From positions 20,602,501 to 20,666,500 of the forward strand of contig CM049400.1 in NCBI GenBank assembly GCA_026929865.2: DNA of 64,000 nucleotides, read 5' to 3'. The notes beneath the pieces are model-generated. The model had not been told where the DNA came from. It saw only the letters and a list, made by a program, of their open reading frames with translations, and did no database searches. Each line of letters starts with the position of its first letter. Positions within the stretch are counted from its first letter, which is position 1. Of the stretch, positions 2,672 through 64,000 are shown in pieces. The translations under genes and the position numbers were made by a program. Source of the stretch: Hyperoplus lanceolatus (taxonomy: Eukaryota; Chordata; Actinopteri; Uranoscopiformes; Ammodytidae).

Positions 2672-2716
2672 TTCTCTGTCACTCAGACTTCTCAGACACC
2701 GCGAGAAGATTCAGTT

Positions 2717-2862: not shown

Positions 2863-2905
2863 ATCCGGAACTCATAGAACCGTAGTTACATACGTAACTA
2901 TCGTT

Positions 2906-24590: not shown

Positions 24591-24591
24591 T

Positions 24592-24760
24592 TGCTTTTGT
24601 GTTTTTCACTAAAGCCCGGTTGCTAAGTGTATGCTCGAATGTATTGTCTTTCTAGCATTGTTGCACTGTTGATCGGGTGCTAAGTTCGCCTAGACCGGTT
24701 GCTTACTTTGATTTAATCAACAGCGAGTGGCTTGGGGTGAGCCAAGCCACCGCCACAGTA
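24592..24760. repeat. Second copy of the DIRS leader block
   Basis: Near-identical to 21255-21425. It places leader-like DNA between polymerase and recombinase. Confidence 0.85.
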
Positions 24761-25168
24761 TTTGTAGAATTGTCGCCTAGAGCGGTTGCATAGGCTACTA
24801 ATTTGCTCGTCAAGTGGGCGGCTTCGGGTCAGAAGTCGCTTTCACTGTGTATTGAGCTGTGTCCCACCAGCGTGGGCTCTCACCTAAGCCTTGCGTGCAT
24901 AGCTTACTTATTGCTTGCCAGTGGATGAGCCGTGCCACACACTATGTGTGTAGCTTTTGTTACTGACAACACTGGATGGGGTCCAGCATTGCAGTTACAG
25001 CCTACGTTTGGTGGCTCCACATTGGCCAGGAAGGCCATGGATCCCAGCGTTACTAAACTCCTCAAGGAGAGCCTTGGTGCCTTCCAGGGAGACAGGACCT
25101 TCTGTCTCAGGTAGGCGGACACATGTGGCACCCGAACTCGGGCGCCTGCAGCTGTGCGTGGGGCTCCT

Positions 25169-26169
25169 GGTAGCCAGGACCCACTGTTGACGTATTGCGA
25201 CCAGTCAGAGGTCCATACCGTTTTAACTTCAGGGGCACTCGCCACTACATGGCGCTATACAGACAGGTGGAAGTTGTTTTCACAGTGGTGCATGGCACAT
25301 GGCGAAGTCCCATGGACTTGTTCAGTGATAGTGATACTACACTTTCTGCAGTCTGTGTTGGGCAGCAGGACAGCTGCTTCCACCCTGTGCGTCTATGTGG
25401 CTGCGATATCGGCCGCACATGCAGGGGTGGGACAACCAGACGGTAGGGTCCCACTACCTAGTCAGGCCAGAGGCTTCATTCAGCCACCATGACCCCTGAG
25501 GGCACCATCAGGGGACTTACAAGTAGTCCTGAGGGCCTTAGGTCTACCCCCATTTGGGCCGCTGAGTCAGGCAGACCTGACGCGGCTGTCTATGAGACGG
25601 CATTCCTCCTTGCCATTGCAACTGCAATCGGTCGGTGAACTCCATGCCTTGTCAGTAAGCCAGGCGTGCTTGCGCTGGCATGTAGAAGGGTCAGGAGTGG
25701 TGCTCTCGCCAAATCCATCCTTCCTATCCAAAACGATTGTCTCCCCACCATGTAAACCAATCGATCGAGTTGGCTGCTTTCAATCCCCTGGGCTCACCAG
25801 GGGATGCAGAAAGAACGTCAGACCCACTGTGCCCGGGGCGGGCGCTTAGGGCATAGGTTGTGGCAACAACCAGCTTGCGTAAGACAAATACCTCTTTGTC
25901 TGCTATGGGAGCTGCAGGAAGGGGGCTGCCCTGTCCAAACAGAGACACTCCCACTGACTTGTGGATGTGGTCTTGAATGCATATAGAGCACATGGGGCTC
26001 CCCATGCCTTGGCCGTTGAGTGCCACTCTACCAGGAGTATGGCTACATCATGGGCTGCCTTGAAGCGGATTTCACGGCAGGACATTTGCGCCACGGCTAC
26101 ATGGTCTTCATCATGTACGTTGCGCAGCTCTACAGAGTAAATGTTGCTCCACCTCATCCGGTGGGATGA
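25169..26169 (+). pseudogene. DIRS tyrosine recombinase remnant (copy B)
   Basis: The N-terminal domain is readable at 25190-25430 (WRYTDRWKLFSQWC, FLQSVLGSRTAA, STLCVYVAAISAAH). The catalytic part has GELHALSVSQACLRW near 25640 and HSTR at 26024-26035, followed by SMATSWA and ISRQDICATATW. After a frameshift comes AQLYRVNVAPPHPVG, with the candidate nucleophile Tyr at 26131-26133, and a TGA ending at 26169. The H-x-x-R and Tyr motifs are in the expected order and spacing. The block between them contains stops, so no full protein can be made as read. Confidence 0.8.
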
Positions 26170-26237
26170 CAGCTGTCTTGTTGATGGCTGCAAGCCCTTA
26201 ATTGATGAGTACTCTTCGTGACCTTTTTGGTATAAGT

Positions 26238-26340
26238 CATCCAGTGCTGTAAGCACCGCCTCTGGCGGTCAGTAGGAATGAAATAGAACGATAGTTACGT
26301 ATGTAACTACGGTTCTATGAGTTCCGGATGACCGCCAGAG
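26238..26340. repeat. DIRS internal complementary region (copy B)
   Basis: 26238-26289 is the reverse complement of 20814-20865 (one or two mismatches), and 26286-26340 is the reverse complement of 26521-26574. The join point lies in TAGAACGATAG, exactly where the right and left ends would meet in a circle. Confidence 0.93.
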
Positions 26341-26385
26341 TTCTCTGTCACTCAGACTTCTCAGACACCGCGAGAAGATTCAGTT

Positions 26386-26531
26386 GGAACAGAACCTCTG
26401 GTGACTTCCGGAATATATAGACATTCCCGGGGTCACCCAGGTGTCACAGGTGACTTTGTTGGTATAAAGATCTCGACCTGCGCATGCGCTCGATGGAACA
26501 TCCAGTGCTGTAAGCACCGCCTCTGGCGGTC
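26386..26531. repeat. DIRS right inverted terminal repeat (copy B)
   Basis: Reverse complement of 20833-20978; the unpaired terminal extension runs on to 26574. Confidence 0.9.
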
Positions 26532-26574
26532 ATCCGGAACTCATAGAACCGTAGTTACATACGTAACTATCGTT

Positions 26575-28624
26575 TTAGTTTGATGAGCAGTTCCTTCTCG
26601 ATGGCAATAGATGCCAGTGCAGAGAGTCGGGTCTGTCCAGTTGCATTCCGTGAGTACCTTTTAATGCGCTTGAGAGCTGAGAAGGATCGCTCCACTGAAG
26701 CTGTAGACACAGGTATGGTCACGATCAAGCAGGTGAGGGCATACAGCTGTGGCATGCTGACTGCTAGCCCTGTGCTACTCAAGAAAGTCAGTAGGTCACT
26801 TGGGCTCTTTCCCCTGAAAGTTGTTCATGCTGTACATCACTTTGAGCTCAGCTCTGAGTCTGCCCATGTCAAACTGGTCACCGTAGCTCTCCTCCAGGCT
26901 CCAGAGCTCTTCTTCGGGGAATGTTTGCTTGAATTTTGCAAACTGTTGTGCATCCAGCAATGCAACAAACAGCAGACGTTCGTGATCGGAAAATCGATTC
27001 CTGATTTGCGTGCCGATGCTGTCGATTAGAGCTGTGTGTAGCTCTCGGAAGTGCGCGCATGGGTCTGGTCGGCCTCTGGCTGCGCTCGGCTGTCCCGCGG
27101 CCTCCGCTGTCCTCTCGTAGATGGCATCAAATTTTTCACGCTCGCCTTCAACACTCTGGCAAAAGTCTGCGATTCTGGCCAGACTGAACTGCATGTCCAA
27201 ACTCTTATTTTGCAGTATTCCGAAGAGCACATCAGCAAAATCAAAAATGTTGATGAAAGCAAAGAGAAAAAAACAGAAGTCATGGCTTGTCAATTGTGAC
27301 AAGTGGCACAATGTACCGTTTCACGGTCAAAATCCTCCGCGTGATCAAGGATGTGCTGGAAAACCTCGACCAGCTCAGCTCTTTTGTTGTGCACCGTGCC
27401 CACAAACCTGGAGTAGAAGTTCCACCTCACCTGTGAGACCCGCGGCAGCCGCCTCGCGCAAAATTCATCCAGCAGTTTTGTGCGTTTAGGAGAACGGGTA
27501 AAAAAGGCGGACAATCCTCCCAGATTTGCAAAAAAAATCTTGCAGTCCCTGATTTTTGCTGCTCCCTGGGACAACACCAGATTGAGTGTGTGTGCATAAC
27601 AATGCACAAGAAGAGCTTGTGGGATTGCTTCTTTTACACGCGCCTGGACGCCATTCAGTCCCGATGCCATTACAGCGGCTACATCATAGCACTGCGCCAC
27701 CAACTTGGCCTTACACTCATAGCTGGTCAACGTGTCAAGGACCAATGCTGCTAAATCTGCTGCTCGCTTTTTTTCCGTGACATCCTCATATTTTAGAAAT
27801 CGCTCCTTTACTCCGTGGTCTGTGACATACCGGAGCACATAGGACAGCTGGGCAGCGTTGCTGAAATCAGTGGTCTCATCCACCATGACTGCAACAAACT
27901 TTGTTTGACTGATCTCCTTCTTGATGGCATCATTCAGCACATCAGCAACAGCATTTATGATGTCATTCTGAATTTTGCCCGATGTTCCCGTAAAAACGGT
28001 GGCAGTGGCAAGGTGATTGCGCAGGTCCGCATCATAGTCGGACAGCAGAGACAGCAGTTCATGGTAATTACCTCGGTTCAGGGACTCTTTCCCCTCGTTG
28101 TGTCCCCTGAATGGAAATTCTTGCTGTCCCAAAAAGATGACACAGTCAATGGGGCACTTGAGTATTTCACGGTTTTTTCTTACTCTCTCATTGTGCAAGC
28201 TCGTCTCTCGTCTCCGCTGCTCATCCAGCTGCAAGTCAACCCTGGACACACCAAAGGTTTTTAAATGAACCACCGATGTGAGGTGACGCTCAGAGGCCTG
28301 ATGTTTTACAGCTGCCTTGGTGAAGCTGTTAAGACTGCTAAAACCGGCGCTGCTCCATGTCCCCCCACTAATGTTAAACAGCAAACACGGCCAGCAGAAT
28401 AGCTTGTTCTGAACGGGGCTAGCCGGTAGCCAGTCATAGCGGCCGTAGTTGCACTCTGTAAAGTGCCGCACAAAACCTTTACCGGTCTGGGTCAGCCCAT
28501 CCAGCTTCGGTGTAGGTCTTCCTCTTGAAATCAACTCTGTCTTCTCTCCAAACGATCGCCTTGAAAAAGGCAACCGAAGGAGATCAGAAACAGGATCGCT
28601 AGGTGCTGTGAAGGCAGTGGCCAT
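26575..28624 (-). pseudogene. hAT transposase, TTF zinc finger / ZMYM-like (copy B)
   Basis: Minus-strand transposase. The first 444 codons (28624-27290) are open: TTF zinc-finger region with CWPCLLF (~77), VDETTD (~248), HCYAHTLNL (~341). A frameshift near 27300 leads to ADVLFGILQNKSLDM and then the body at 26796-27230. A second shift lies in a C run near 26811. The dimerisation domain reads TIPVSTASVERSFSALKRIK and EKELLIKLK, up to the DIRS junction. The final codons are at 20737-20813. In the second catalytic block the usual C-D-GA-NM is CYDVAAVMAS, suggesting loss of activity. The start ATG at 28624 is chosen because it opens the conserved N-terminus. Confidence 0.87.
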
Positions 28625-29058
28625 AGAAGTTCACTATCAACAACTCTCACTACGTGCCAACGATTCAAAATTCGCTGATGACATCACAGGGGCCCAGCGC
28701 TGGCGCTGGTCCCTGGGGGCGTCCTATTACAAACATCAAAATCTGATTGGCTGATTACACACGTCAGTCAAATTTATTATCCAATGGAAGGTGGCAGCTT
28801 CAGCAGAAGGCTAGCAATACTTTTAGTGCTGGCCCCCGCTGGTGTGATAGCTGTGATGCGTTTTTCAGCTCCGCTCAGCCTTACAAAAAAAATGGTTTTC
28901 CTTCTGAAATTATATTGTAACGTACTGAAAAAAATATGGAATTAATACGCGTTCAGACACACATTAATGTAATTTTTAAAAAATATGTATTTATTTATTA
29001 TTTTTATTTTGACAGGGCCAGCAGAGAAGGCCCTGCTGGCCCTGACGGCCCACCACTG
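28625..29058 (-). mobile_element. hAT 5' region and terminus (copy B)
   Basis: Same as 4955-5388, ending CCTGACGGCCCACCACTG at 29058, followed by CTTAATTG. 28730-28790 contains inverted CCAAT words (ATTGG) that could belong to the transposase promoter. Confidence 0.72.
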
Positions 29059-38215: not shown

Positions 38216-41200
38216 CTATTGTTGTTGTTGGTTTTTAAAATAATTTAGGAAGGGGCGCCAAATTCTATCAAATTTATTCTCGAATCCCTGGGTAGTATAA
38301 CGTATTTTCTCTAAATTCATACATGACATAATGTCTCTAATCCAATGTGAGTGGGAAGGAGGAGCAGGATCTTTCCACTTGAGTAAGATAACCCTACGAG
38401 CAAGTAATGAGGTGAAGGCCAGTACCTTTAGCTTCACTTTAGGCAAGCCTGAATTGGGGGCGATGCCAAAAATTGCAGTGAAAGGGTTCGGCTCAATTTG
38501 ATGCTGAAGTACTTCAGAAATTGTTTTAAAAACTGATGTCCAGAACCCAGTCAAAGTGGGACACAACCAGTACATGTGAAAGAGTGATGCCGGTGCGCTC
38601 TTACAGCTATCACAGGTCGGGTCTACATCGGGGAACATACGAGCTAATTTAGTTTTAGATATGTGGATACGATGTACTATCTTAAATTGCACAAGAGCAT
38701 GTCGGGCGCACATGGAGGTAGAGTGTATTCGATCCAGGACTGAATCCCACATGTGATCTGTGAAGGCAGAACCTAGGTCCTGCTCCCACAGGGTTTTTAT
38801 AGCTGCTAATGAGGGGCTATGCAACTTTGAAATAAGGTTGAAAAACACAGAAATTGAGCCTTTTAATGTGGGGTTTACAGAAAGAAACAAATCGACATGA
38901 TTGGCTGGCGGTTTATAAGGGAATTGGGGAATTAACTTCTGTGTAAAATGCCTGATTTGCAGAAATCGGAAAAAAATTTGTCTTTTCGATACCAAAATGT
39001 TTTGTCAATTGGGAAAAACTAGCAAATAGATCATTAATAAATAAATCACCAATGCATTTTAAGCCTTTTTTATGCCAGATCTTGAATGCACCATCCACCG
39101 TCGAGGGAGTAAACAAATGATTAGCTGCAATTGGGCTGAAAAGTGAAAAATTCTGCATTCCAAAATTCTTCCTAAATTGGGTCCAAATTCGAAGGGAGTG
39201 CTTAATCACGGGATTACTGTTGGGAATAGCCGAAGAGAGTGGAAGTGCGGCGCTTAAGAGGGCAGATAGAGACAATGGGCTAACAGCGCTGGACTCCATT
39301 GTTACCCATACTGGGGCTGAGTCGTCAAGGTGAAAATGCACCCAATACACTAAAGAACGGATATTAGCAGCCCAGTAATAGTATTGGAAATTAGGGAGGG
39401 CCATTCCGCCTGTTTGTTTTGGTCTTTGAAGAAATGCTTTCCTTAACCGAGGGTGTTTACCATTCCAAATATAATTTATCATTAATGAGTCAAGGGCCTG
39501 AAAAAATGATTTGGGGAGAAAGATGGGGAGACATTGGAATAGATATAGGAACTTTGGGAGTAATGTCATTTTAATTGAATTTATTCTACCTATGAGAGAG
39601 AAAGCCAGAGGAGACCACTTCGATAATATTTGCTTCGCCTGATCCAATAATTTGAGGAAGTTCGATTTAAATAGGTTTTTAAAATTTCTGGTAAAACATA
39701 CCCCAAGGTAACTCAGCTGATCTGTCACCACTTTGAGTGGGAGAGCTGTATAATCAAGTTTAAGAGCTTCTTTATTAATCGGAAAGAGTTCGCTCTTACT
39801 CAGGTTAAGTTTATAGCCAGAAAACTGACTAAAGACCTCCAACACAGAAAGTGCCTCCGGTAAAGAGGTGGCTGGCTTGGCGACAAACAAAAGTAAGTCA
39901 TCGGCGTATAATGATACCTTATGTTCAATTCCTCCTCTCCATATCCCCTGAATCTGTTTGTTACCGCGAATGGCAATCGCAAGTGGTTCGATTGCAATAG
40001 CAAAAAGGAGTGGGCTCAAAGGACAACCCTGCCGGGTCCCACGATGCAGATCAAAACTACTTGAGTAACGGCTGTTTGTTAATACTGAGGCAGAAGGGCA
40101 TGCATATAACAATTTAACCCAAGAAGTGAAAACGGGACCCAGACCGAATTTCTCAAGGGTGAAAAACAAATAATTCCATTCTACTCTATCAAATGCTTTT
40201 TCAGCATCCATAGAAGCAAGGCATTCTGATTCAATATTTCTGGGGGAATATAAAATGTTCATTAGCCGGCGGATGTTATAAAATGATTGGCGTCCCTTTA
40301 TAAACCCAGTTTGGTCGGGGGATATAATAGAGGGGAGAACATCCTCCAATCTGTGGGCGAGAATTTTAGCAAGTATCTTCACATCCGTATTTAATAGTGA
40401 AATTGGTCGGTATGATGCACAATCTAGAGGATCTTTATCCTTTTTTAACAACAGGGAAATACAGGCCTGGTAGAACGAAGGCGGGAGTTTACCTGAGTCA
40501 AATGAGTCTGAGAATACTGAACATAAAAAAGGCGATAATTCGGCTGAAAATTTCTTAAAAAAGTCAGATGGAAGTCCGTCTGGACCAGGAGATTTGCCTG
40601 ATTGCATAGATGTTATTGCTGCAATAATTTCCCTCTGAGTAATAGGTGCCTCAAGGCTATGTCTCAGATCTTGAGAAAGGGAAGGCATGTTTAGGTTACT
40701 GAAAAAGGTTTCCATCACCGCTGCGTCTACTGTACAATCAGAACTATACAAATTTGAATAGAATGTTTTGAACTTTTCGTTTATCAATTTCTGATCTGAT
40801 GTTGTACACCCACTGTCTGTCCGTATTCCAGGGATGAGTTGCTTTGCTCTAAATCCGCGCAGTTGATTGGCCAGGAGTTTGCCAATTTTGTCACCATGCT
40901 CGTAAAAAGTACTTCTGCTCCTAAGCAACTGGTCAGCAACCTGACGAGAGGAAAGAAGGTTGAATTCTGTCTGAAGTTTTAAACGTTCTTTGTAAAGTTC
41001 AGATGAAGGTGAGGTAGCATATAGTCTGTCTATGTTCAGAATCTGATCAGCTATTTCAGTTTGTTTCTGTTTTGTACACTTATTTTTGTATGCTGCAAAT
41101 GATATAATTTCACCTCTCAAATAGGCTTTCAGGGCTTCCCAAATTGTTGCATTAGACACATCTGGTGTTCTATTTATACTCAAAAAAGTTTTAATATGTG

Positions 41201-41998
41201 TAGAGATGTGTGAAAGAAAACTCGCATCTGTGAGCAACAATGGATCCAGTCTCCACTGCCTTCTAGTATACTCAACGTCAGAGAAAGCCAGTTGAAGGAG
41301 CAGAGGAGCGTGATCTGAGATCACAATACTTTCATAACTACATGACTTTAGGTCTGACATCAATGAATTATCAACAAAAAAATAATCAATTCGGGTGTAA
41401 GTGTGGTGGACATGTGAAAAGAATGAATATTCTCTTCCTGTGGGGTATAAAAACCTGTATGGATCAGAAAGGCTATAATCAGCAAGAAATGATTTGATAT
41501 AACCTGCAGATCTGTTAAGAGTGGCAGGTTTGGGGGACGAGCGATCTAAGACTGGATCTAGATAACAATTAAAATCCCCACCAAGAATAAGAGAATGGGA
41601 ATTGAGATCGGGAGTTGAGAAAAAAATCTCTTAAAGAATTCTACATCATCGACGTTAGGCGCGTAGACGTTGGCCAAGATGACTGACTTATTGTGAAGTT
41701 TGCCTGAAACAATAATAAAACGTCCATTTTTGTCTGATATAATGTTTGAGGACTCAAAAGGAATATTACTATCAATAAGGATAGCTGTGCCCCTGGCCTT
41801 AGCCCTGAAATTAGAATGAAAAAATTGTCCACGCCAGCATTTACTTAGTCGCCCATGGTCAGAGTCGTGTAAGTGGGTTTCTTGAAGGAAAACTATTCCA
41901 GCCCTGAGCCGTTTTAGGTGGGTTAAGACCTTACCCCTTTTCACTTGGTGATTAAGCCCCTTGACATTCCAACTAATTAAATTAAGATTGCCCTTCAT
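38216..41998 (-). pseudogene. L1 ORF2 (endonuclease / reverse transcriptase), two frameshifts
   Basis: This enzyme nicks target DNA and copies L1 RNA into it. From 41998 the apurinic endonuclease domain starts NLISWNVKGLNHQ and has FLQETHL; after a frameshift near 41612 (one C missing compared with the second L1) it continues GGDFNCYLDP and SDHAPLLL. The RT domain has SPGPDGLPSDFFKKF, LAHRLEDVLP, DQTGFIKGRQS, MDAEKAFDRVEW, GTRQGCPLSPLLFAIAIEPL and the catalytic YADD at about 39897-39908. A second shift in an A run near 38970 moves into the C-terminal frame (38995-38216), with a Cys motif CDSCKS...WLCP. About 1,260 codons in total, the usual L1 size. Confidence 0.93.
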
Positions 41999-42695: not shown

Positions 42696-43529
42696 CTACG
42701 GACTCACACCCAGTGTAGATAAGTAGTTAGACGCTTCAGAGACAGACCGCAGCCACTTTCTCTCGCCGCTCTGGAGAGTAATGCGAAGCCTCGCAGGGAA
42801 GAGGAGAGAGGGGCGGAGACCGCGCTGATAAAGCTCAGCCATGACCCGTTTGTATTCAGCCCGCTGCTTCACGACCTCCGCGCTGTAGTCCTCGTAGAAC
42901 CGGAGCTTGTGGCCGTGGTACTCCAGCTCGCCCTGTTTACGTGCCTCCGTCATGATCAGGTCTTTAGTCTGGTATCGGTGAAAGCGGATAACGACGGATC
43001 TCGGCCTCTCATGCGGGCCCGGTTTGGGTGCCAGAGTGCGGTGAGCCCTGTCCAGCTCCGGGGGAGAAGGGAGTACTTGACCACCAAACACCTCAACGAG
43101 GAGCTCAGAGAAAAAGGCAGTGGGGCGCGCACCCTCCAGTGATTCTGGTAAACCCACGATACGAACGTTCTGTCTCCTGCTCCTCCCTTCCAAATCCGAC
43201 AGTTTAGCTTTCAACAGCGTATTAACTTCCTGCAGTGAGGAGCACGTAGCCTCAAGTTGCTCCAGGCGTCCGCAAACAGTTTCTGCATTATCCTCGAGAT
43301 CGGTTATACGTTTCCCCTGGCTTGAGACCACGGCCTGGATGCTGTCCAGTTTAGCGTCCATGCTGGCGAAAGCTGATTTAAACTCGGCAGCTATCGCTGC
43401 TCTGTGCTGTTCAAGCAGACCCGGAATGGAAGCCACTGAGCTAGCACCAACGTCCATGCTAACCACGCTGTCCGAGGACATATCTGACTCTGCCGAATCT
43501 CTTTTTGCGTTTTTCTTGCTTCTAGGCAT
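42696..43529 (-). CDS. L1 ORF1 protein, 277 aa, intact
   Basis: ORF1p is the RNA-binding, trimer-forming chaperone that packages L1 RNA. The open frame starts MPRSKKNAKRDSAESD and has a helical coiled-coil stretch at residues ~45-120 (AAEFKSAFASMDAKLDSIQ, TDLEDNAETVCGRLEQLEAT). An RRM-like domain lies at ~125-215 (NVRIVGLPESLEG, RPRSVVIRFHRYQTKDLI) and a C-terminal domain follows (LRFYEDYSAEV, LRITLQSGERKWL). No stop or shift interrupts it. The start is the first ATG, 141 bp from the element's 5' end. Confidence 0.93.
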   Translation of the reverse strand: MPRSKKNAKRDSAESDMSSDSVVSMDVGASSVASIPGLLEQHRAAIAAEFKSAFASMDAKLDSIQAVVSSQGKRITDLEDNAETVCGRLEQLEATCSSLQEVNTLLKAKLSDLEGRSRRQNVRIVGLPESLEGARPTAFFSELLVEVFGGQVLPSPPELDRAHRTLAPKPGPHERPRSVVIRFHRYQTKDLIMTEARKQGELEYHGHKLRFYEDYSAEVVKQRAEYKRVMAELYQRGLRPSLLFPARLRITLQSGERKWLRSVSEASNYLSTLGVSP

Positions 43530-43687
43530 TTCTCCAAAACAGTATCAGTGTTACCGGCAACACAAGCACAAAAAAAATCGACGAGAATAGGGTTTAATCA
43601 GTTAGGTCTGAAATATTTTGTGGGAGCTATAGAGCGATCGTGCCTACCCCATGCTCTGTAACCCGGAAGTCACAGCGTTGACATTTC

Positions 43688-44729
43688 CACAGCTCATTAA
43701 TGAACAACAGCACACAAAGATGGAGTGGACTACAAGGCTGCACAGGGATATGAACACGCATGATAGTAGTAACAAAACGGAAAGCATTTCCAAACCTTTT
43801 GGAGCATCTAATGGGAAATGGCTCCTCTTTTGCCTACTAAGGAGATAGCATACATCTTAATGAGTTTCAAATTAATCTGTTCTTTCAGCTACCACTGAAT
43901 TCCACTCTTCACCAGTTTTTAAGGAGACTATAAATATTTCAGCATGGAAATTATCTCTTTCTACCACCCTAGAATTGCAAATGAATTTCCATTCACCGTC
44001 TGAGGATTAAATTACGTCGTTGGACGGATTGTTGTAACATTTTAATTTTATCAAGCAAATGACCCATGATATTGGTTTAAAACCTAAATATGAATATCAA
44101 TTTAAATTGCAAATGATATCTACATTGCTGCACAGACATTGGCAGGAATGTCTCCAAACTTTTCCATACAAAAAATTGTCCCATTTGCTTGAAATAAGTA
44201 TAATAACAATTGTGGAATTTGAGAATTTAAATGTGAAATGGAGCGAGTTGTGGGATAGGTTGGAGCCTAGCCTGGCTGGGGAACTTTACAGTCAATGTCT
44301 GTGGTCAAAGGTAATAAAGACACAGAGCTAGACGATGAAAAACCTGCGTGCCCGCCAACAATGCTGACTATTTACTAGGAGGTGGTTAGGAATTCATTTC
44401 TAGATTGCGTCTTAATAAATTTAATTCTCAGATGTTTTCCAAAAGCAAAATGCAGTCTTGTATTATGATAAAGGTTGAAGGGTTTGACTGTGGGCAACAG
44501 CAAAAACTACATGAATTAGATTTCCCCGAGCAGCCTAAAGAATCTGCCTGATTCCTGTTTCTCAGTATCGCAGAGCATGAAAGCTGGGAAGTTATTTTTG
44601 GCCGACGAGAATTTGCTTGCACCTGCAAAAACTTTTTTTTGCAACAGCTATTTGTGGCAAGATTGGACAAAGGGAAGGGCAGAACGGACCCCCTGCAGCT
44701 GTGCATACAGGACAACACTGCAGAACTCT
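43688..44729. other. Unassigned DNA between L1 and the long-TIR element
   Basis: No gene or repeat end recognised. The frame at 44059-44331 has no known domain. Confidence 0.4.
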
Positions 44730-45133
44730 ATGGGGTCAGACGGGTATCAATATTAATGAATGCACAGAGAAGGATTCACACTTGTATTTTTGATTTTTTA
44801 AATGACTCTCTTCTCACAAATACATTTCAATGCACACACAAATGGATACCGTCATATATAAATGTAAAATAAATCCATCTATAATAAAAAGTTTCACAAA
44901 CACATTTCCGATCCACACACAAATGTGTCTTGTTTTAAATAAATGTAATATAAATCCATAAATATATTAGTTTAAAAAAATATTTAGAATTTTCATAAAA
45001 AATGTGTTTGGATGTTGTTACATTTATATAAAAACTGTTACATTTGAATTTACAAAATGCTTTTAATTTGTGAACTTCCTTGCATTCATGTGTGAATTGG
45101 TCTGTATTTGTGTGTGGATTTATGAGACTCCCC

Positions 45134-45217
45134 TGACGTCGCTGGTTTCACAAATGCGTTTTTTTCAACCAGGAACTAGCTATAGCCAATCGGATGTCTT
45201 CCTTGTTTTCAGCCAAT
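45134..45217 (+). promoter_or_regulatory. Promoter-like region in left arm of copy 1
   Basis: A TGACGTCG (CRE-like) word at 45134-45141 and two CCAAT boxes in the same orientation (45186-45190, 45213-45217) precede a 5' exon with a good donor (CAT/GTAAGT at 45528). The same set is mirrored in the right arm (about 48220-48330) and in both arms of copy 2. Confidence 0.5.
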
Positions 45218-45801
45218 CACATGAGCGCAGTCCCACAGACAAGGGTACGTTTATGCCCAGAGACACAGAACGGTACGGTAGATGGCAGGACTGAATGAGC
45301 TCAACGTCAATGCATTATTTTTAAAACTGCCGTGAAGTTGTTTTGCTGCAGTGGACCACGTTTTTGGTGAATCATAAACGAGTCACCAACAATTTCTCCA
45401 AAGAAGAGTTTAGTAACTTTGGCTAGAAGACTGCTGGCTTTGCAGAGCGGCTATGTCTAGCTGATACCTGCTGGAGCTGCCTTACTTTACTTCAGACTTC
45501 ACCGACCCCGTGCTGATTGCCGATCATGTAAGTCACTTATCAGCTTAGCTGTACATTACATTTTACTGTCTTATTAGCTTTAATTATGCTACTACAGTGT
45601 AGTTCACTTGTGGGTGTAGCTAACATTTAGCCCTAGGCCCAGTGTTTGAAGCTAACGTAGCTAACGTTGTTATCATAGTAGCCTACTACTGAATGTTTAT
45701 TTTTAGCAGGTCATGCAAGCTACCTTGATGACAATCACACAAAATATGGCCACTAAATTAAGAATTATATTATACCCTAACAGAATATCTCTGTATTACA
45801 G

Positions 45802-46172
45802 CATTACAGACAGCCTACGCCAGAGTGAATGCTAGTTTTGAGGGCTAATGCGACATTGAGCCTGAACCTCTCATCTCTAGCCTGGACACTGGAGGACAGA
45901 CGATGTGACCTACACCTGCAGTACCATGGAGAAGAAAAGGAACAGAGGTATGATGAAGAATCTACTCATGCTAATGTAGTTATAGATATCCTAAACTGCA
46001 TAGAACTCTTTGTATATTCTATTTGATTGTTTAACTTAATACGCTTATTAGGTGAACAAGCACACTGCAATTTATTCTTCTCATAAGGACTGTTTTCTTC
46101 AGTGTCATCATTGTAAATATATTCAATTTCTTCTTAAAAGCAGACAAGGTTTTACTCAAAGACATCTCGAAG
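45802..46172 (+). pseudogene. 5' exons of ISL2EU-like gene, left arm of copy 1
   Basis: Exon 2 runs from an acceptor (TGTATTACAG) to a donor after AACAGAG at 45947 and contains ATG 45926 (MEKKRNR). Exon 3 starts after TTATTAG at 46052. In this arm an extra A near 46072 breaks the frame. In copy 2 the same exons join as METKRNRGEQ, HCIYSSHKECFLQCHHCKY and NKVLLKDILK. The frame is lost where the arm ends at 46172, so only the right-arm gene continues into more of the protein. Confidence 0.5.
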
Positions 46173-46419
46173 TGCATCTTCACAATTTCACAAAAGCATT
46201 CATACCCCTTAGACCTTTCCACATGGATAAAGCACACATACATTTATTTTATTGGGATTTCATGTAATAAACCAACACAGCACTGCTTATAATTGTGATG
46301 TGGAATCAAAATGATACATAGTTTTACATTTTCTTTTTATAAAAATTATAAATAAAAAAAATGAAAAGTGTGGCTTGTAAAATAAGTTCAAGTGGTATGA
46401 ATACTTTTGCAACCTACTG

Positions 46420-46600
46420 TAGATCATTTGACAACAGTTAGCCAGGCCTGTGTGTGTGTGTTAACCATAAGCAAACCTTTACCTATTTTCTGTCACTGTG
46501 CTTTTGTGTTGCAATTATCAAGAACTGGACGAGAAAGGACAAAGTGTTTTTGTGGAAGTGTCCTGCTCAAAGACCTACTGACTTCAAACTCTTTAAATAA
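46420..46600 (+). pseudogene. Possible terminal exon and poly(A) signal in the centre of copy 1
   Basis: After an acceptor-like TTTTGTGTTGCA (TTTTGCAG in copy 2), a frame reads NWTRKDKVFLWKCPAQRP and then TDFKLFK, ending in TAA within AAATAAA. It is preserved in both copies. It could be the last exon of the left-arm transcript; the protein is not recognised. Confidence 0.35.
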
Positions 46601-46749
46601 AGCCTCACATATTTTCATTCAACGCTGTGTGCAAGTGTATTTATGAATTTTAAAATAATTATTTTAATTATAATATAATTGAAGTGTAATAAATGATGAA
46701 GCATTTTCAAATAGTAGATACAGTATTATTGAAGAATGATGGATATTGA

Positions 46750-47037
46750 GTTATCTAGTAAGCTGCTTTCCCTCTCAAAGGCAGGGTTTCATAATGTTCC
46801 CTATATATACGTAGAGCAGCTTCTAAGGCATAAGGGTTGAGAAACATTTGGTTCAAGGCCTTGAAGAAGCGTCCTGCACTTTGGAGGCTCCTGAAGCACC
46901 TCGTTCCTGACCTGGAGAAAGTATTATTGTACAGGGACATGCACTGGTACAGCAAAAATGTTTTTCATAGTAAAAGTAATTTAGTTTATGCTCCTTCAGC
47001 CAAGGTAGGCCATCACAGAATAGATAAAGAGATTTGA
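46750..47037. pseudogene. Conserved central open region of copy 1, strand uncertain
   Basis: Both strands are open for about 66 codons here and in copy 2 (53200-53503). Plus strand: RNIWFKALKKRPALWRLLKH; minus strand: RSLQSAGRFFKALNQMFLNP, followed by YALEAALRIYREH. The minus strand would follow on from the right-arm gene. I recognise neither. Confidence 0.35.
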
Positions 47038-47199
47038 GAGGTATAATACATTTATTATTTACTGCACACCAATGTTACAAACTGCAACATACAATTTCAA
47101 ATACTGTCGTCACCTGGCACTCCACGGGAACACCTGCAAGTACAATATGTTGTTTGTTAATTGTTTATTGGGCATTTATTGTACATACACTATAATATT

Positions 47200-47466
47200 A
47201 GCATATGTATTCATAAGTACCTGATCTGCATCCAAAGTATGAAAATGAGACAACCAGTGGACACTCCTGGACAACACCTTGAAGACTTCCAAGTTGGAGG
47301 TCTGGTACAGTGGGCTGAGCTTCAAGATGTCTTTGAGTAAAACCTTGTTTCTGCTTTTAAGAAGAAATTGAATATATTTACAATGATGACACTGAAGAAA
47401 ACATTCCTTATGAGAAGAATAAATGCAGTGTGCTAGTTCACCTAATAAGCTTATTAAGTGAAACAA
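47200..47466 (-). pseudogene. ISL2EU-like coding exon, right arm of copy 1
   Basis: On the minus strand the arm exon continues past the inverted repeat: HCIYSSHKECFLQCHHCKY, NKVLLKDILKLSPLYQTSN and LEVFKVLSRSVHWLSHFHTL, ending DADQ before a donor-like CAG/GTACTT at about 47222. The LLKDI-KLSP-YQTS-LEVF pattern resembles the second protein of ISL2EU transposons, recalled from the family rather than searched. It is interrupted by introns. Confidence 0.5.
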
Positions 47467-48732
47467 TCAAATAGAATATACAAAGAGTTCTATGCAGTTT
47501 AGGATATCTTTAACTACATTTGCATGAGTAGATTCTTCATCATACCTCTGTTCCTTTTCTTCTCCATGGTTCTTTAACTACTGCAGGTGTAGGTCGCATC
47601 GTCTGTCCTCCAGTGTCCTGGCTAGAGATGAGAGGTTCAGGCTCAATGTCGCATTAGCCCTCAACACTAGCATTCTGTTAGGGTATAATATAATTCTTAA
47701 TTTAGTGGCCATATTTTGTGTGATTGTCATCAAGGTAGCTAGCATGACCTGCTAAAAATAAACATTCAGTAGTAGGCTACTGTGATAACAACGTTAGCTA
47801 CGTTAGCTTCAAACACCGGGGCTAGGGCTAAATGTTAGCAACACCCAGAAGTGAACTACACTGTAGTAGCATAACTAAAGCTAATAAGACAGTAAAATGT
47901 AATGTACAGCTAAGCTGATAAGTGACTTACATGATCGGCAATCAGCACGGGGTCGGTGAAGTCTGAAGTAAAGAAAGGCAGCTCCAGCAGGCATCAGCCA
48001 GACATAGCCGCTCTGCAAAGCCAGCAGCCTTCTAGCCAAAGTTACTAAACTCTTCTTTGGAGAAATGGACGCTGGAAATGCTGGAATTGTTGTCAAAAAC
48101 GTGGTCCACTGCAGCAAAACAACTCCACGGCAGTTTTAAAAATAATGCATTGACGTTGAGCTCATTCAGTCCTGCCATCTACCGTACCGTTCTGTGTCTC
48201 TGGGCATAAACGGACCCCTGTTGTGGGACTGCGCTCATGTGATTGGCTGAAAACAAGGAAGACATCCGATTGGCTATAGCTAGTTCCTGGTTGAAAAAAA
48301 CGCATTTGTGAAACCAGCGACGTCAGGGGAGTCTCATAAATCCACACACAAATACAAACCAATTCACACATGAATGCAAGGAAGTTCACAAATTAAAAGC
48401 ATTTTGTAAATTCAAATGTAACAGTTTGTATATAAATGTAACAACATCCAAACACATTTTTGATGAAAATTCTAAATCTTTTTTAAATTAATATATTTAT
48501 GTACTTATATTACATTTATTTAAAACAAGACACATTTGTGTGTGGATCGGAAATGTGTTTGTGAAACTTTTTATTATAGATGGATTTATTTTACATTTAT
48601 ATATGACGGTATCCATTTGTGTGTGCATTGAAATGTATTTGTGAGAAGAGAGTCATTTATATATAAATCACAAAATACAAGTGTGAATCCTTCTCTGTGC
48701 ATTCATTAATATTGATACCCGTCTGACCCCAT

Positions 48733-50598
48733 AGAACTCTAGTAAAGTTCCAACAACCAGAAGAAGCCAATACATCAAAGTGCTGTAAATAATTCAAACT
48801 GACCGCTTATTTTCCAATACCCAGACATTGGCAGTATTCACGGATAGATAAAAGTATACATTTTTTCTGTGCTTATATTTCTGTGAGTGTAATTATCACC
48901 GTGCATTTCCACAGGTCAAGGATTTGTAACCAGGGTTTAGATGAGAAGCGGAATATTCGTTCAGATGGAAAGCTCTGCAGCACAGTTTTAACATTTGATC
49001 TACAAGCATGCTAGACAGGGTGCTGCTAAAACAGTGCTGGCAGTAATAGAATGTAATGGTGTCCTAATAAAGCAGTGATATTTGAAACATTATTATAATT
49101 CAATTTCTGAATTTATTTTTAGTTAACTCAGAGTCAAAATTGAAGCACTAATTTCCATTTTATGTGTACAATGCAAAACAAAAAATTAAGTGATTGTTTT
49201 AATGACGGCAAGGACGTATAGCACCAAACTTGCTTATTATTTTTTGGACTGGTTAGTTGTGAATTACTAAAAATTAAATTGACAAAAAAAGCCATCTCAC
49301 ACGGAGTGACGAAAAACCTTATCTAATTTTATCTTCACAAACTGAACGTTTAGATATATTTTGCACAGAATTTCAGAGGCAGGAAATTAAAAAGGCAGCT
49401 GTTTTATTGAGATAAGCCTCCGTTCTCTCGCATTCGTATATGGCATCTTGCATACTAATGGAATCATGGCTGCTCACCAACACTTTTTTTTAAAAATCCT
49501 GTCAGGTGAAAAATGGTGATGATCGTTCATGGTCTAAAACAGTTATTCCATCACTAATGTTCCTCCCTGAAATGTGGCTTGATGTGTTGTGTCTTCCATA
49601 GACATCAGTTCTGTTTAGCAGCGGAGCTAATTAATTGTCTTGCAGTCTGTACACACTCTGTCTATTTCCATCCATGTCTGGAATTAAACAAGGTACATAA
49701 TTCTCCCTGGATTGCATGCTGCCTTAAGGAAAAAAGGAGGGAAAAAAGAAAAAAAACTCACCTTCTCTGCTTAAATTGAGAAAGGAGATTTTGTAATGAG
49801 GGTTTGCTCATTCAAGCCCATTCCTCTGTGTGCACAAACGGACCAATTTGCAAGCTTCCCACATCCATATTGTTACTGACCGTGGAGATAATCCCACAGT
49901 GTCTGAGCGGCTCATACATCACCCCTTAATATAATTATTTGAATTCTTGCTCACACCTGATTACCAAAGGCAGTGCTGCTCGATTCCTTAAATGTCAATG
50001 ATGTACATGAAACATATAGTACGTGTCTCAGTCTATTTGTCTTTCACTGAATACCAAGCTACTGTCACTAGGTAACATTTGTCTGCTCTAATAGGCTTTT
50101 GAGGAGGAAAAACCTTAACACTAAACAGTGATCTTCCTTCATATTGGAGACACTGAGTGAGGTCTACACATGATAGTTTTCAGTTCAAAATACGTTAGCA
50201 GCAGCACAATAGTCCAAACAGAGGAATATGCATACATACCCTGCGTTCCAATACCCTTTCTGCTAAATAATAGGGTAGAGAAAATATTTAGGAAGACACA
50301 CTTCTTGTGGTCCGATTTAGTGTCCTTAAATGTCTAATTCATCGGGCCGACATTTTTTGTGTTGAAATCAGCATACTATTTGAGTGATTCGGACCCACAA
50401 TCAAGGCGCAAAAAATGAAGGATGTCCCAATTGTATGCATACTGCAAGTTTACTAGATTATTTTTATGGTCATGTGTAGAAGAATAGAAAGAAAAAATGT
50501 ATGCGATTTGGAACACAGGGACGTGTGACTTCTACATGAATAGATATTTTTAGCAATCCTGTTTTAATTCGATGTGGCACTTTTTCTGATCAATCATA
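48733..50598. other. Unassigned DNA
   Basis: No gene, RNA or repeat end recognised. Runs from the copy 1 flank to the target duplication at 50599. Confidence 0.4.
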
Positions 50599-50624
50599 CC
50601 CAGAGCCAGTGGCGGGTGTGTCAG

Positions 50625-53600
50625 GGCAACTGGTGATCAGGGTAACTGGTGGCGGTAGCTACGTCGATGCCTGATCAAAACCCTGTAAACGTCAAATGTT
50701 TAATATGTTCATGTTGGCCGTACGAATCCAATCTACTTAATATCGGTTTACACTTCCATAGCCTTTGAGTGGAATATACAATTTGAGGTAAGATTTGTGT
50801 CACAGTGTGCGTAACCAGCACAAAGCTTGGAGCCAGCTGTTGGCTGTGGTGGCAACGTCTGACGACCAGATTAGTTTGTGATAGCACATCAACAAATACC
50901 ACCGATCGTATTTAATATGCATCACCTATGTTTCCCACTCATCACTATACATTACTCGGAACCCGTCCAGATTGTATGACTCTCAGTTTGAAAATCGGAG
51001 GACAGTAAATTCAGAAAACTAACGCGTTGCGTGGTAGACTTTTCTTTTTTCTTTCGTAGGCTACTGAATACATCCTACTGTGCGTATGGCATACTTTGGG
51101 TAACTGAAAACTGTTTTTATCATGATGTTTTAAAATAAACCGACAAATTAATGCGACATAGAGACCAATTCCTGGTTCATGTGTTGGATTATCTGGTGGT
51201 GACAGGCTTGTATGGAATGAAATCAGTCTCAATATTAATGAATGCACAGAGAAGGATTCACACTTGTATTTTGTGATTTATATATAAATGACTCTCTTCT
51301 CACAAATACATTTCAATGCACACACAAATGAAAACCGTCATATATAAATGTAAAATAAATCCATCTATAAGACAAACGTTTCACAAACACATTTCCTATC
51401 CACACACAAATGTGTATTGTTTTAAATAAATGTTATATAAATCCATAAATTTATTAATTTAAAAAAGATTTGCAATTTTCATCCAAAATGTGTTTGGATG
51501 TTGTTACATTTATATACAAACTGTTACATTTGAATTTACAAAATGCTTTTAATTTGTGAACTTCCTTGCATTCATGTGTGAATTGGTCTGTATTTGTGTG
51601 TGGAATTTTGAGACTCCCCTGACGTCGCTGGTTTCACAAATGTGTTTTTTTCAACCAGGAACTACCTATAGCCAATCGGATGTCTTCCTCGTTTTTAGCC
51701 AATCACATGAGCGCAGTCTCACAAGGGTCCGTTTACGCCCAGAGACAGAGGACGGTACGGCACGACTGAATGAGCTCAACCTCAATGCATTATTTTTAAA
51801 ACTGCCGTGGAGTTGTTTAGCCGCAGTGGACCACGTTTTTGGTGAATCATAAACGAGTCACCAAAAATTCCAGCATTTGCAGCGTCCATTTCTCCAAAGA
51901 AGAGTTTAGTAACTTTGGCTAGAAGGCTGCTGGCTTTGCAGAGCAGCTATGTCTAGCTGATGCCTGCTGGAGCTGCCTTTCTTTACTTACTACCGACCCT
52001 GTGCTGATTGCCGATCATGTAAGTCACTTATCAGTTTAGCTGTACATTACATTTTACTGTCTCATTAGCTTTAGTTATGCTACTACAGTGTATTTCACTT
52101 GTGTGTGTTGCTGACATTTAGCCCTAGGCCCAGTGTTTGAAGCTAACGTTGTTATCATAGTAGCCTACTACCAAATGTTTATTTTTAGCAGGTCATGCTA
52201 GCTACCTTGATGACAATCACACAAAATATAGCCACTGAATTAAGAATTGTATTACCCTAACAGAATATCTCTGTATTACAGCATTACAGACAGCCTATGC
52301 CAGAGTGAATGCTAGTGTTGAGGGCTAATGCAACATTGAGCCTGAACCTCTCATCTCAACCCGGGACCCTGGAAGACAGACGATGTGACCTACACATGCA
52401 GTAGTTAAAGAACCATGGAGACGAAAAGGAACAGAGGTATGATGAAGAATCTACTCATGCTAATGTAATTAAAGATATCCTAAACTGCATAGAACTCTCT
52501 GTATATTATATTTGATTGTTTCACTTAATAAGCTTATTAGGTGAACAAGCACACTGCATTTATTCTTCTCATAAGGAATGTTTTCTTCAGTGTCATCATT
52601 GTAAATATATTCAATTTCTTCTTAAAAGCAGAAACAAGGTTTTACTCAAAGACATCTTGAAGTGCATCTTCACAATATCACAAAAGTATTCATACCCCTT
52701 AGACCTTTCCACATCGATAAATCACACATACATTTATTTTATCGGGATTTCATGTAATAAACCAACACAGCATTGCTTATAATTGTGATGTGATGATAAA
52801 TAGTTTTACATTTTTTATATTTAAATAAATAAAAAAAACTGAAAAGTGTGGCTTGTAAAATAAGTTCAAGTGGTATGAATACTTTTGCAACCCACTGTAG
52901 ATCATTTGACAACAGTTAGCCAGGCCTGTGTGTGTTAACCATAAGCAAACCTTTACCTATTTTCTGTCACTGTGCTTTTGTTTTGCAGTTATCAAGAACT
53001 GGACGAGAAAGGACAAAGTGTTTTTGTGGAAGTGTCCTGCTCAAAGACCTACTGACTTCAAACTCTTTAAATAAAGCCTCACATATTTTCATTCAACGCT
53101 GTGTGCATGTGTATTTATGAATTTTAAAATAATTATTTTAATTATAATATAATTGAAGTGTAATAAATGATGAAGCATTTTCAAATAGTAGATACAGTAT
53201 TATTGAAGAATGATGGATATTGAGTTATCTAGTAAGCTGCTTTCCCTCTCAAAGGCAGGGTTCCATAATGTGCCCTGTAGAGCAGCTTCTAAGGCATAAG
53301 GGTTGAGAAACATTTGGTTCAAGGCCTTGATGAAGCGTCCTGCACCTTGGAGGCTCCTGAAGCACCTCGTTCCTGACCTGGAGAAAGTATTATTGTACAG
53401 GGACATGCACTGGTACAGCAACAATGTTTTTCATAGTAAAAGTAATTTAGTTTATGCTCCTTCAGCCAAGGTAGGCCATCACAGAATAGATAAAGAGATT
53501 TGAGAGGTATAATACATTTATTATTTACTGCACACCAATGTTACAAACTGCGACATACAATTTCAAATAGTTACTGTCGTCGTCTGGCACTCTCCACGGG

Positions 53601-56600
53601 AACACCTGCAAGTACAATATGTTGTTTGTTAATTGTTTATTGGGCATTTATTGTACATACACTATAAGATTAGCATATGTATTCATAAGTACCTGATCTG
53701 CATCCAAAGTATGAAAATGAGACAACCAGTGGACACTCCTGGACAACACCTTGAAGACTTCCAAGTTGGAGGTCTGGTACAGTGGGCTGAGCTTCAAGAT
53801 GTCTTTGAGTAAAACCTTGTTTCTGCTTTTAAGAAGAAATTGAATATATTTACAATGATGACACTAAAGAAAACATTCCTTATGAGAAGAATAAATGCAG
53901 TGTGCTAGTTCACCTAATAAGCTTATTAAGTGAAACAATCAAATATAATATACAGAGAGTTCTATGTAGTTTAGGACATCTTTAATTACATTAGCATGAG
54001 TAGATTCTTCATCATACCTCTGTTCCTTTTCGTCTCCATGATTCTTTAACTACTGCATGTTTAGGTCACATCGTCTGTCTTCCAGGGTCCCGGGTTGAGA
54101 TGAGAGGTTCAGGCTCAATGTCGCATTAGCCCTCAACACTAGCATTCACTCTGGCATAGGCTGTCTGTAATGCTGTTATACAGAGATATTCTGTTAGGGT
54201 ATAATATAATTCTTAATTCAGTGGTTATATTTTGTGTGATTGTCATCAAGGTAGCTAGCATGACCTGCTAAAAATAAACATTTGGTAGTAGGCTACTATG
54301 ATAACAACGTTAGCTTCAAACACTGGGCCTAGGGCTAAATGTCAGCAACACACACAAGTGAAATACACTGTAGTAGCATAACTAAAGCTAATGAGACAGT
54401 AAAATGTAATGTACAGCTAAGCTGATAAGTGACTTACATGATCGGCAATCAGCACAGGGTCGGTAGTAAGTAAAGAAAGGCAGCTCCAGCAGGCATCAGC
54501 TAGACATAGCTGCTCTGCAAAGCCAGCAGCCTTCTAGCCAAAGTTACTAAACTCTTCTTTGGAGAAATGGACGCTGCAAATGCTGAAATTTTTGGTGACT
54601 CGTTTATGATTCACCAAAAACGTGGTCCACTGCGGCTAAACAACTCCACGGCAGTTTTAAAAATAATGCATTGAGGTTGAGCTCATTCAGTCGTGCCGTA
54701 CCGTCCTCTGTCTCTGGGCGTAAACGGACCCTTGTGAGACTGCGCTCATGTGATTGGCTAAAAACGAGGAAGACATCCGATTGGCTATAGGTAGTTCCTG
54801 GTTGAAAAAAACACATTTGTGAAACCAGCGACGTCAGGGGAGTCTCATAAATCCACACACAAATACAGACCAATTCACACATGAATGCAAGGAAGTTCAC
54901 AAATTAAAAGCATTTTGTAAATTCAAATGTAACAGTTTGTATATAAATGTAACAACATCCAAACACATTTTTGATGAAAATTGCAAATCTTTTTTAAATT
55001 AATATATTTATGGATTTATATAACATTTATTTAAAACAATACACATTTGTGTGTGGATCGGAAATGTGTTTGTGAAACGTTTGTCTTATAGATGGATTTA
55101 TTTTACATTTATATATGACGGTTTTCATTTGTGTGTGCATTGAAATGTATTTGTGAGAAGAGAGTCATTTATATATAAATCACAAAATACAAGTGTGAAT
55201 CCTTCTCTGTGCATTCATTAATATTGAGACTGATTTCATTCCATAGGCTTGGGAGGATATGGAGCAAGTAGCTAGCAGACTGTCGATGCCTTGTCAGTTT
55301 TAAATTGTACATTTAATGCTATTATTCAGATTTAGGCCTAGGCATACTTCAGAAGGATTGGTGATTATTTGTCCATACGCTTTTAGTGAAATGTTGTTTG
55401 TGGTAAGCTATTTGTGTGTAACCATTGAAGCGTGGAGGTGTGTGCTAGCTGGGGTTTACTGGGATATCAGTTTAACTTGTGAATAATCTGTACTACCGTG
55501 TTTCATACCGTTTTCATATCATCACTAATGTGTTTTTCAATACTCTGAGCCTATTGATGATATGACTGATATCACATTACACTATTGTCAATGTATAAGG
55601 AAAACAGCAGGATTTTGCTATTGTAGTTAGTCGAGGTGGACATAGAACTGCAATTCGCTCATTTTACATGAGTTTTTTTTAATATTATTATTTTTTTAAA
55701 TGGTGACAATAACAAACTAGCACAGACGTTCTTATACTTATCTGACACTGAGAGTAAATGAGATGGATGATAGATTGCTGGTTCGCTTCTGACAGATACT
55801 AATTATTTTTCTTTTTTGGTTGGGGGCAAATGTAATCATCCGGATCAGGGCAACTGGTGACAGCAGACTCGATGCCCGCAACTTGACATATTTAGGCCTA
55901 CATATCCGATCTACTTAATATTTAGACTTCCATAACCTACAGCTTGTTAGTGGAACAGTGTGAGGTAAGATTTGTGTTACAGATGTGCTTAACAGCACGA
56001 AGTTTGGAGTCAGTTGTTGGCTTTGGGGCAAATTGTGGCGATCAGATTAATTTGTGGCAGCACATCGGCAAATAGCCTACCATCGTGTTTAAAATTGCAT
56101 CACCTGTAGCTATGTTTCCCACTCATCACTATGATATTCTACATTACGAGGACCCGTCCAGATTATAAATTACTCTGTTTTTAAATCGGAGGACAGTATA
56201 GCATATACATTTAGAAAACTAACGCACGGGATATTTTTCTTGTAGGCTAATTATAATTTTGTACTGAATAGCCTACATCCTATTGTTCATGTTGTCTACT
56301 TTGGTTATGTGACTGAAATAAGCTTATTATGATGTTTTAAAAATAAACCGACAAATTAATGCGACATAGAGACGAAATCTTCCTGGTTTATTTGTTGGGT
56401 TATCTGGTGACAGCTAGGAACGTGTAGGTGACTGTGTTGATGCCTTGTGAAAATAACGCAAACGTAAATAAGTTGATAGGCTGTGTGTGGTTGAATACAA
56501 GATGTTCTCGTCAGTTTGAAAAAGTTGGACATATATCGCTATTATACGGAACTACTTGAGAAGGGTTGGGGATTATTCTTCCATTCAGCTTTTTAGTGAA

Positions 56601-62477: not shown

Positions 62478-64000
62478 ATGAAGGGCAATCTTAATTTAAT
62501 TAGTTGGAATGTCAAGGGGCTAAATCACCAAGTGAAAAGGGGTAAGGTCTTAACCCACCTAAAACGGCTCAGGGCTGGAATAGTTTTCCTTCAAGAAACC
62601 CACTTACATGACTCTGACCATGGGCGACTAAGTAAATGCTGGCGTGGACAGTTTTTTCATTCTAATTTCAGGGCTAAGGCCAGGGGCACAGCTATCCTTA
62701 TTGATAGTAATATTCCTTTTGAGTCCTCAAACATTATATCAGACAAAAATGGACGTTTTATTATTGTTTCAGGCAAACTTTACAATAAGTCAGTCATCTT
62801 GGCCAACGTCTACGTGCAACGTTGATGATGTAGAATTCTTTAAGAGATTTTTTTCTCAACTCCCCGATCTCAACTCCCATTCTCTTATTCTTGGTGGGGA
62901 TTTTAATTGTTATCTAGATCCAGTCTTAGATCGCTCTTCCCCCATACTTGCCACTCTTAGCAGATCTGCAGGTTATATCAAATCATTCCTTGCTGATTAT
63001 AGCCTCTCTGATCCATACAGGTTTTTATACCCCACAGGAAGAGAATATTCATTCTTTTCACATGTCCACCACACTTACAGCCGAATTGATTATTTTTTTG
63101 TTGATAATTCATTGATGTCAGACCTAAAGTCATGCAGTATTGTGATCTCAGATCATGCTCCTCTGCTCCTTCAACTGGCTTTCTCTGACGTTGAGTATAC
63201 AAGAAGACTGTGGAGACTGGATCCATTGTTGCTCACAGATGAGAGTTTTCTTTTACACATCTCTACACATATTAAAACTTTTTTGAGTATAAATAAAACA
63301 CCAGATGCAACAATTTGGGAAGCCCTGAAAGCCTATTTGAGATGTGAAATTATATCATTTGCAGCATACAAAAATAAGTGTACAAAACAGAAACAAACTG
63401 AAATAGCTGATCAGATTCTGAACATAGACAGACAATATGCTAATTCACCTTCATCTGAACTTTACAAAGAACGTTTAAAACTTCAGACAGAATTCAACCT
63501 TATTTCCTCTCGTCAGGTTGCTGACCAGTTGCTTAGGAGAAGAAGTACTTTTTACGAGCATGGTGACAAGATTGGCAAACTCCTGGCCAATCAACTGCGC
63601 GGATTTAGAGCGAAGCAACTCATCCCTGGAATACGGACAGAGTGGGTGTACAACATCAGATCAGAAATTGATAAACGAAAAGTTCAAAACATTCTATTCA
63701 AATTTGTATAGTTCTGATTGTACAGTAGACGCAGCGGTGATGGAAACCTTTTTCAGTAACCTAAACATGCCTTCCCTTTCTCAAGACCTGAGACATAGCC
63801 TTGAGACACCTATTACTCAGAGGGAAATTATTGCAGCAATAACATCTATGCAATCAGGCAAATCTCCTGGTCCAGACGGACTTCCATCTGACTTTTTTAA
63901 GAAATTTTCAGCCGAATTATCGCCTTTTTTATGTTCCGTATTCTCAGACTCATTTGACTCAGGTAAACTCCCGCCTTCGTTCTACCAGGCCTGTATTTCC
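62478..64000 (+). pseudogene. L1 ORF2, second copy, frameshifted and cut by window end
   Basis: Starts NLISWNVKGLNHQ with the endonuclease motif FLQETHL. A 2-bp loss near 62815 (VYVQR where the other copy has VYAPNVDD) shifts the frame. The endonuclease then continues (LILGGDFNCYLDP, SRIDYFFVDN, ISDHAPLLL) at 62821-63640. A second 2-bp loss near 63643 ends that frame at 63711. The RT region resumes in another frame with SPGPDGLPSDFFKK up to the window edge. Confidence 0.9.

Follow-up and report, generated by a model that had tools for sequence, protein, structure and literature searches.

In a 64-kb stretch of the Hyperoplus lanceolatus genome (contig CM049400.1, positions 20,602,501 to 20,666,500; hereafter the window), a repeat search bore out the initial annotation in recovering two direct copies of a transposon, W1 and W2, each with inverted arms of about 1.4 kb. 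Judged from their sequence, W1 and W2 probably represent an apparently non-autonomous family of IS3EU-type DNA transposons, characterized by arms that bear gene fragments, by exchange between arm types, and by mobile copies that lack the core.

Boundaries and Genome-Wide Distribution of the Elements

The boundaries of both elements were set by exact 6-bp target duplications. Element W1 comprises 4005 bp (44729..48733), with the ends TATGGGG..CCCCATA, and is flanked by GAACTC (44723-44728 and 48734-48739), while element W2 comprises 4035 bp (51211..55245), with the ends TATGGAA..TTCCATA, and is flanked by GGCTTG (51205-51210 and 55246-55251). The limits first proposed, 44732-48730 and 51214-55242, were thus nearly right, with the true ends lying 3 bp farther out on each side. 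Because each is flanked by its own exact duplication, W1 and W2 must have inserted separately and are not the product of a tandem duplication. The arms of W1, which are terminal inverted repeats (TIRs) with a promoter-like stretch and 5'-exon-like sequence, extend over 44729..46175 (plus strand) and 47320..48733 (minus strand), both with approximate inner ends. Those of W2 extend over 51211..52662 (plus strand), containing two inverted-repeat segments that are 99% and 98% complementary, and 53792..55245 (minus strand), as delimited by the repeat search. The two arms differ by 1.2% in W2 and by 3.8% in W1. Between the two elements, ten arm segments differed by 3.5-7.8% and four core segments by 1.0-4.1%, and because this divergence differs between arm and core, these regions seem to have partly different histories.

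The search was extended to the whole genome (807 Mb, 527 contigs). One arm used as query gave at least 42 matches, with 40 of 312 first-look candidates scored and 28 loci around matches retrieved, and an exact 26-bp element end was present at 69 sites (34 forward and 35 reverse), with none for the reversed control. The terminal sequence of the family is TATGGAATCAGACGGG. The termini TATGG..CCATA were found in 23 of 25 copies, the remaining two (L016 and L019) having a misplaced right end. An exact 6-bp duplication accompanied 19 of the 25 copies with both ends assigned, W1 and W2 included; when L016 and L019 were dropped and L041, L046/47, L048, and L049 were added, the count was 22 of 27 sites. 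Single-ended copies (L024, L032, L033, L034, and L035) were left out of these counts. The duplications are 6 bp long and vary in sequence. The further genomic copies called for by the initial annotation therefore exist, with the same architecture at many loci, and the family is recently active.

A SINE-like (short interspersed element-like) insert of about 325 bp occupies the core of 19 of the 25 copies (position ~2500-2827 of the L014 element) and is not present in W1, W2, L018, L039, L040, or L041, so it serves as a subfamily marker. A general preference for hairpin targets was considered and dropped, as only 1 of 22 sites showed such a target, with means of 2.95 at the insertion sites versus 2.49 at 5000 random window sites. 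That single site is L048 (C6:17079950-17081520), an arm-only hairpin inserted at the centre of a short target palindrome with a 14-bp stem.

Promoter-Like and Exon-Like Sequence in the Arms

Reading inward, each arm presents a CRE-like (cAMP response element-like) site, two CCAAT boxes, a splice donor, an exon whose ATG has a strong start context, and a partial third exon. In W2, the CRE-like TGACGTC of the left arm (plus strand) lies at 51620..51626, the two CCAAT boxes at 51670..51706, and the predicted exon 2, with its ACCATGG start and ATG at 52415, at 52282..52436. The original description of arms with promoter-like and 5'-exon-like sequence is upheld by the recurrence of these features across 38 arms from 19 copies. 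The CRE-like sequence was exact in 17 of the 38 arms and the CCAAT boxes in 37 and 38; the ACCATGG start and donor 2 were each kept in 37, donor 1 in 34, and the exon-3 acceptor stretch in 33. Within the window, 26 TGACGT-type sites were counted, 9 of them with at least two CCAAT-type sites within 120 bp, and 6 of these 9 lie in arms. In the three elements measured, arm positions 401-820 had a CpG ratio of 0.57-0.75 and the remaining sequence one of 0.19-0.44, a weak signal given a window median of 0.59. A difference suggestive of constraint on the promoter and exons in the pooled arms became small and uneven once left and right arms were counted separately (a count that left out L009_R, L010_R, and the arms of W2 and L013), and for this reason no constraint is claimed. 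The CRE-like site and CCAAT boxes suggest a candidate inward promoter in each arm.

The organization into two converging gene-like units per element, also part of the initial annotation, is supported. However, the proposal that only the right-arm gene continues does not stand, since a candidate terminal exon with AATAAA was likewise present for the left arm in four of five copies compared by exact strings (W2, L014, L020, and L021); in the left unit of W1, the terminal acceptor reads CAA. In W2, this candidate exon is predicted at 52989..53075 (plus strand), ending in AATAAA. Its counterpart in the right-arm unit, also with AATAAA, is predicted at 53517..53605 (minus strand), and among the same five copies it was found in W1, W2, L014, and L020 and not in L021.

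Coding Capacity and Origin of Exon 3

An ISL2EU-like spliced protein had been expected from the right-arm unit, but splicing to either of two acceptors, tried in four copies, gave only 11-56 amino acids. For both W2 arms and for the right arms of the other three copies (W1, L014, and L021), the spliced ATG exon encodes 11 or 16 amino acids; the figures are 11 or 30 for the left arm of L014 and 11 or 56 for those of W1 and L021. Without splicing, the ATG exon encodes 17. As the splice forms tried yield no intact protein, the gene-like unit is a fossil.

Exon 3 of the right-arm unit of W2 (53693..53863, minus strand) is related by sequence comparison to an exon of a DxxH-type transposase gene. 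Its 57-amino-acid reading gave at least 146 genome matches (150 of 187 candidates scored), and an internal stop interrupts 8 of the 146. Known copies of the element account for many of the matches, and the first ~25 residues match in left arms too. Four weak matches with 77-80% identity are distant homologues, among them L044 (C4:23450930), which is 74% identical to the element DNA over 156 bp (E 1e-21) and has, as judged by eye, a donor at the position corresponding to that of the element. While L044 keeps the frame LSPLYQTSNLEVFHSVILRFAPK, the element departs from it after LEVF, so exon 3 of the element is a frame-broken fragment. The gene pieces of L044, which may be Kolobok-like, contain a DVWH motif of the DxxH type. 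Individually, they were sub-threshold against MULE and Mutator; joined, they matched Mutator (PF20700, E 0.002), ISL3 (0.0075), and MULE (0.1), none of which reached the curated cutoff, and they had no match in NCBIfam. The similarity of exon 3 is thus to a transposase exon of the DxxH type (Kolobok/MULE-like).

Exchange Between Arm Types and Arm-Only Hairpins

Arms were compared among 17 copies, with W1 and W2 excluded and L016, L019, L022, L023, L029, and L036 dropped. The mean difference was 2.8% within the arm pair of a copy, 1.5% between left arms of different copies, 3.2% between right arms, and 3.2% between left and right arms of different copies. Left and right arms are distinguished by 48 columns. 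Mosaic tracts in these columns demonstrate that sequence has been exchanged between arm types, whether from arm to arm or from copy to copy. In 9 of the 17 copies, both arms share one type of outer block (arm positions 632-677), left-type in 5 and right-type in 4, and L020 has within its left arm a tract that is largely right-type.

Copies without a core were also found. L036 is a near-palindrome of 1619 bp with the duplication CATATT, and L048 and L049 are arm-only hairpins of 1398 bp with 636-bp stems at 98.9%. The latter two are reverse-oriented copies with different flanks and a single difference in 1398 positions, L048 having an exact TCATCG duplication and L049 a duplication shifted by one base. 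Their near-identity at different sites shows that arm sequence alone is mobilisable and has moved very recently.

Superfamily Assignment

IS3EU, a Repbase superfamily (IS3EU/GingerRoot) listed for zebrafish in passages of PMC10045372, PMC12730594, and PMC4746887, is described there as having TA..TA ends (TAYGG..CCRTA in rust-fungus families) and usually 6-bp duplications (PMC10045372, PMC12730594). The TATGG..CCATA termini and 6-bp duplications of the present family match this description, and it is on the ends that membership is based; the arms of about 1.4 kb with gene sequence set the family apart, and no description of an IS3EU element with long gene-bearing arms turned up in searches of an open-licence library.

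Several observations weigh against this picture. Five of the 27 sites have no exact duplication, namely L011, with inverted-duplicate flanks, L021, with 5 of 6 bases, L030, L031, and L049, with its one-base shift. No IS3EU transposase, in autonomous members a DDE enzyme of the IS3/IS481-like integrase kind, turned up among the copies examined, although no dedicated profile search was made for it, and the sole transposase-like piece in the element is of the DxxH type, unlike IS3EU. No autonomous parent was found among these copies either, an 11.2-kb copy on C8 lying outside that set. In the arms, 21 of 38 have no exact CRE-like site, the exon-2 acceptor reads AT instead of AG in 16 of 38, and the combination of a CRE with two CCAAT boxes also occurs at three places of the window outside the arms, a single duplicated block accounting for two of the three. 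Finally, exchange is partial, because left arms are on average closer to the left arms of other copies than to their own partners.

In the search for a parent, an 11.4-kb copy on C15 was rejected, as it holds another transposon of about 5.1 kb nested in the element core (L046-L047, C15:22793800-22805450). This nested transposon has 566-bp inverted repeats at 99.5% and a 641-amino-acid open frame, of which the 399 amino acids tested had no Pfam match at E<=0.01. In L042, a 518-amino-acid open frame runs, as judged by eye, into reverse-transcriptase-like letters.

The exon fragment could alternatively be the remnant of the family's own transposase and not a captured gene, which would place the family in the DxxH group (MULE, Kolobok, Dada, and relatives). 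The similarity of exon 3 to the L044 exon, together with the DVWH motif and the sub-threshold Mutator, ISL3, and MULE matches of the L044 pieces, would fit such an origin. However, the duplications made by Kolobok are TTAA in the account given in PMC9587614, whereas those found here vary in sequence over 6 bp. Dada, described in a passage of PMC3706591 as lacking TIRs and targeting small-RNA genes, is rejected in view of the 1.4-kb TIRs and of the missing small-RNA target: positions 44000-56000 contain no tRNA gene, and the window as a whole gave no Rfam match. As the TATGG ends and 6-bp duplications match IS3EU, descent from a DxxH-group transposon appears unlikely, and the DxxH-type gene fragment within IS3EU-type ends is best read as captured. 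An ISL2EU (PHIS) transposon carrying a partial ISL2EU gene, the family label given by the initial annotation from an impression of the sequence, would also be a DNA transposon, but is very improbable: Harbinger/ISL2EU and relatives have 0-4-bp duplications according to part of PMC10045372, and the 6-bp duplications at 22 of 27 sites contradict this membership, while four short frames scanned against Pfam gave no ISL2EU-kind match and a single weak SCD match below the cutoff. An assembly artefact as the source of the inverted arms, raised in the initial annotation as assembly collapse and suggested by the inverted-duplicated flank of L011 (~771 bp) should that be an artefact and not a real inverted duplication, is extremely improbable and is refuted for the family, since paired ends with 6-bp duplications recur at many loci genome-wide and one copy contains a nested insertion.

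At L011 itself (C16:12947832-12953005, with L037 and L038), the flanks are mutually inverted-duplicated for about 771 bp, after which the duplication stops, and roughly 0.9 kb farther to the right there is a third element end. This arrangement could be a real inverted duplication or an assembly error.

Predicted Transcripts and Double-Stranded RNA

The initial annotation had envisaged head-on transcripts complementary over their 5' 1.4 kb. This does not follow from the structure, as the 5' sequences of transcripts from the two arms would be in the same sense. Likewise, the AATAAA signals of W2 at 53070-53075 (plus strand) and 53517-53522 (minus strand) face each other about 440 bp apart, so transcripts ending at them would not overlap. 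Double-stranded RNA would consequently require a transcript long enough to enter the opposite arm, and such read-through of the centre would be predicted to yield a hairpin RNA. The arm-only hairpins are the best candidates for such a product, because the distance to the opposite arm is short.

Other Features of the Window

The window also contains a direct repeat block at 390-4130 and 24062-27800, about 23.67 kb apart and 99-100% identical in the reported stretches, which probably extends to 4960 and 28630. A frame in its second copy (27290-28630) has a DUF4371 domain, which occurs in hAT-like elements. A LINE-like (long interspersed element-like) pair of frames was identified on the minus strand, with reverse transcriptase and endonuclease domains in 38913-41630 and a weak sub-threshold coiled-coil match alone in 42696-43544; a related frame, as judged by eye, is located at 62632-63711.

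Relationship to Known Systems and Implications

Gene sequence within long TIRs has been described in Galileo, a Drosophila transposon of the P superfamily, in which the TIRs include part of the open reading frame (ORF), as in a 4306-bp copy with TIRs of 1575 and 1608 bp that are 97.5% identical, and in which copies are reduced to TIRs and spacer (PMC4168063). Its authors considered the drawing of gene sequence into terminal repeats to be so far unique to Galileo (PMC4168063). The present family shares both the gene sequence within long TIRs and the TIR-only copies (L036, L048, and L049). It differs in superfamily and in the piece recruited, which in the nearly complete copy of Galileo is the ORF end and here is a promoter-like stretch with 5' exons. 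The anatomy of the arms suggests that the terminal inverted repeats grew to about 1.4 kb by incorporating promoter-like sequence together with a gene fragment's 5' exons, a growth that may resemble the drawing of ORF sequence into the repeats of Galileo. Arm types have exchanged sequence, within one copy or between copies. A transposase presumably supplied from elsewhere would move these non-autonomous elements, and that it would need the ends alone would explain why copies without the core have moved too.

In maize, the TIRs of MuDR contain the promoters of two convergently transcribed genes, and Mu killer, a partial inverted duplicate for which silencing through hairpin RNA was proposed, was reported to give rise to antisense transcripts starting inside it (passages of PMC3440606). 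The present family would resemble this pair in its predicted dual inward promoters and its hairpin copies; MuDR differs in being protein-coding and from another superfamily. Each arm may start an inward-running transcript, and read-through over the centre could produce the hairpin RNA considered above. By analogy, this would be a vertebrate DNA transposon in which both arms contain the promoter and 5' exons, exchange keeps the arms similar, and the arm-only hairpins derived from it disperse as mobile producers of RNA that silences the parent, much as Mu killer does in maize; this extension is speculative and we regard it as improbable.

If true, the IS3EU-like assignment would extend the uptake of gene sequence into terminal repeats, known from Galileo, to another family of transposons. 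In the very young copies, one can trace base by base how arms exchange sequence, how the core is lost, and how an element is reduced to a mobile hairpin, and, if the arms are transcribed, self-silencing by mobile hairpins would become a testable question in a vertebrate.

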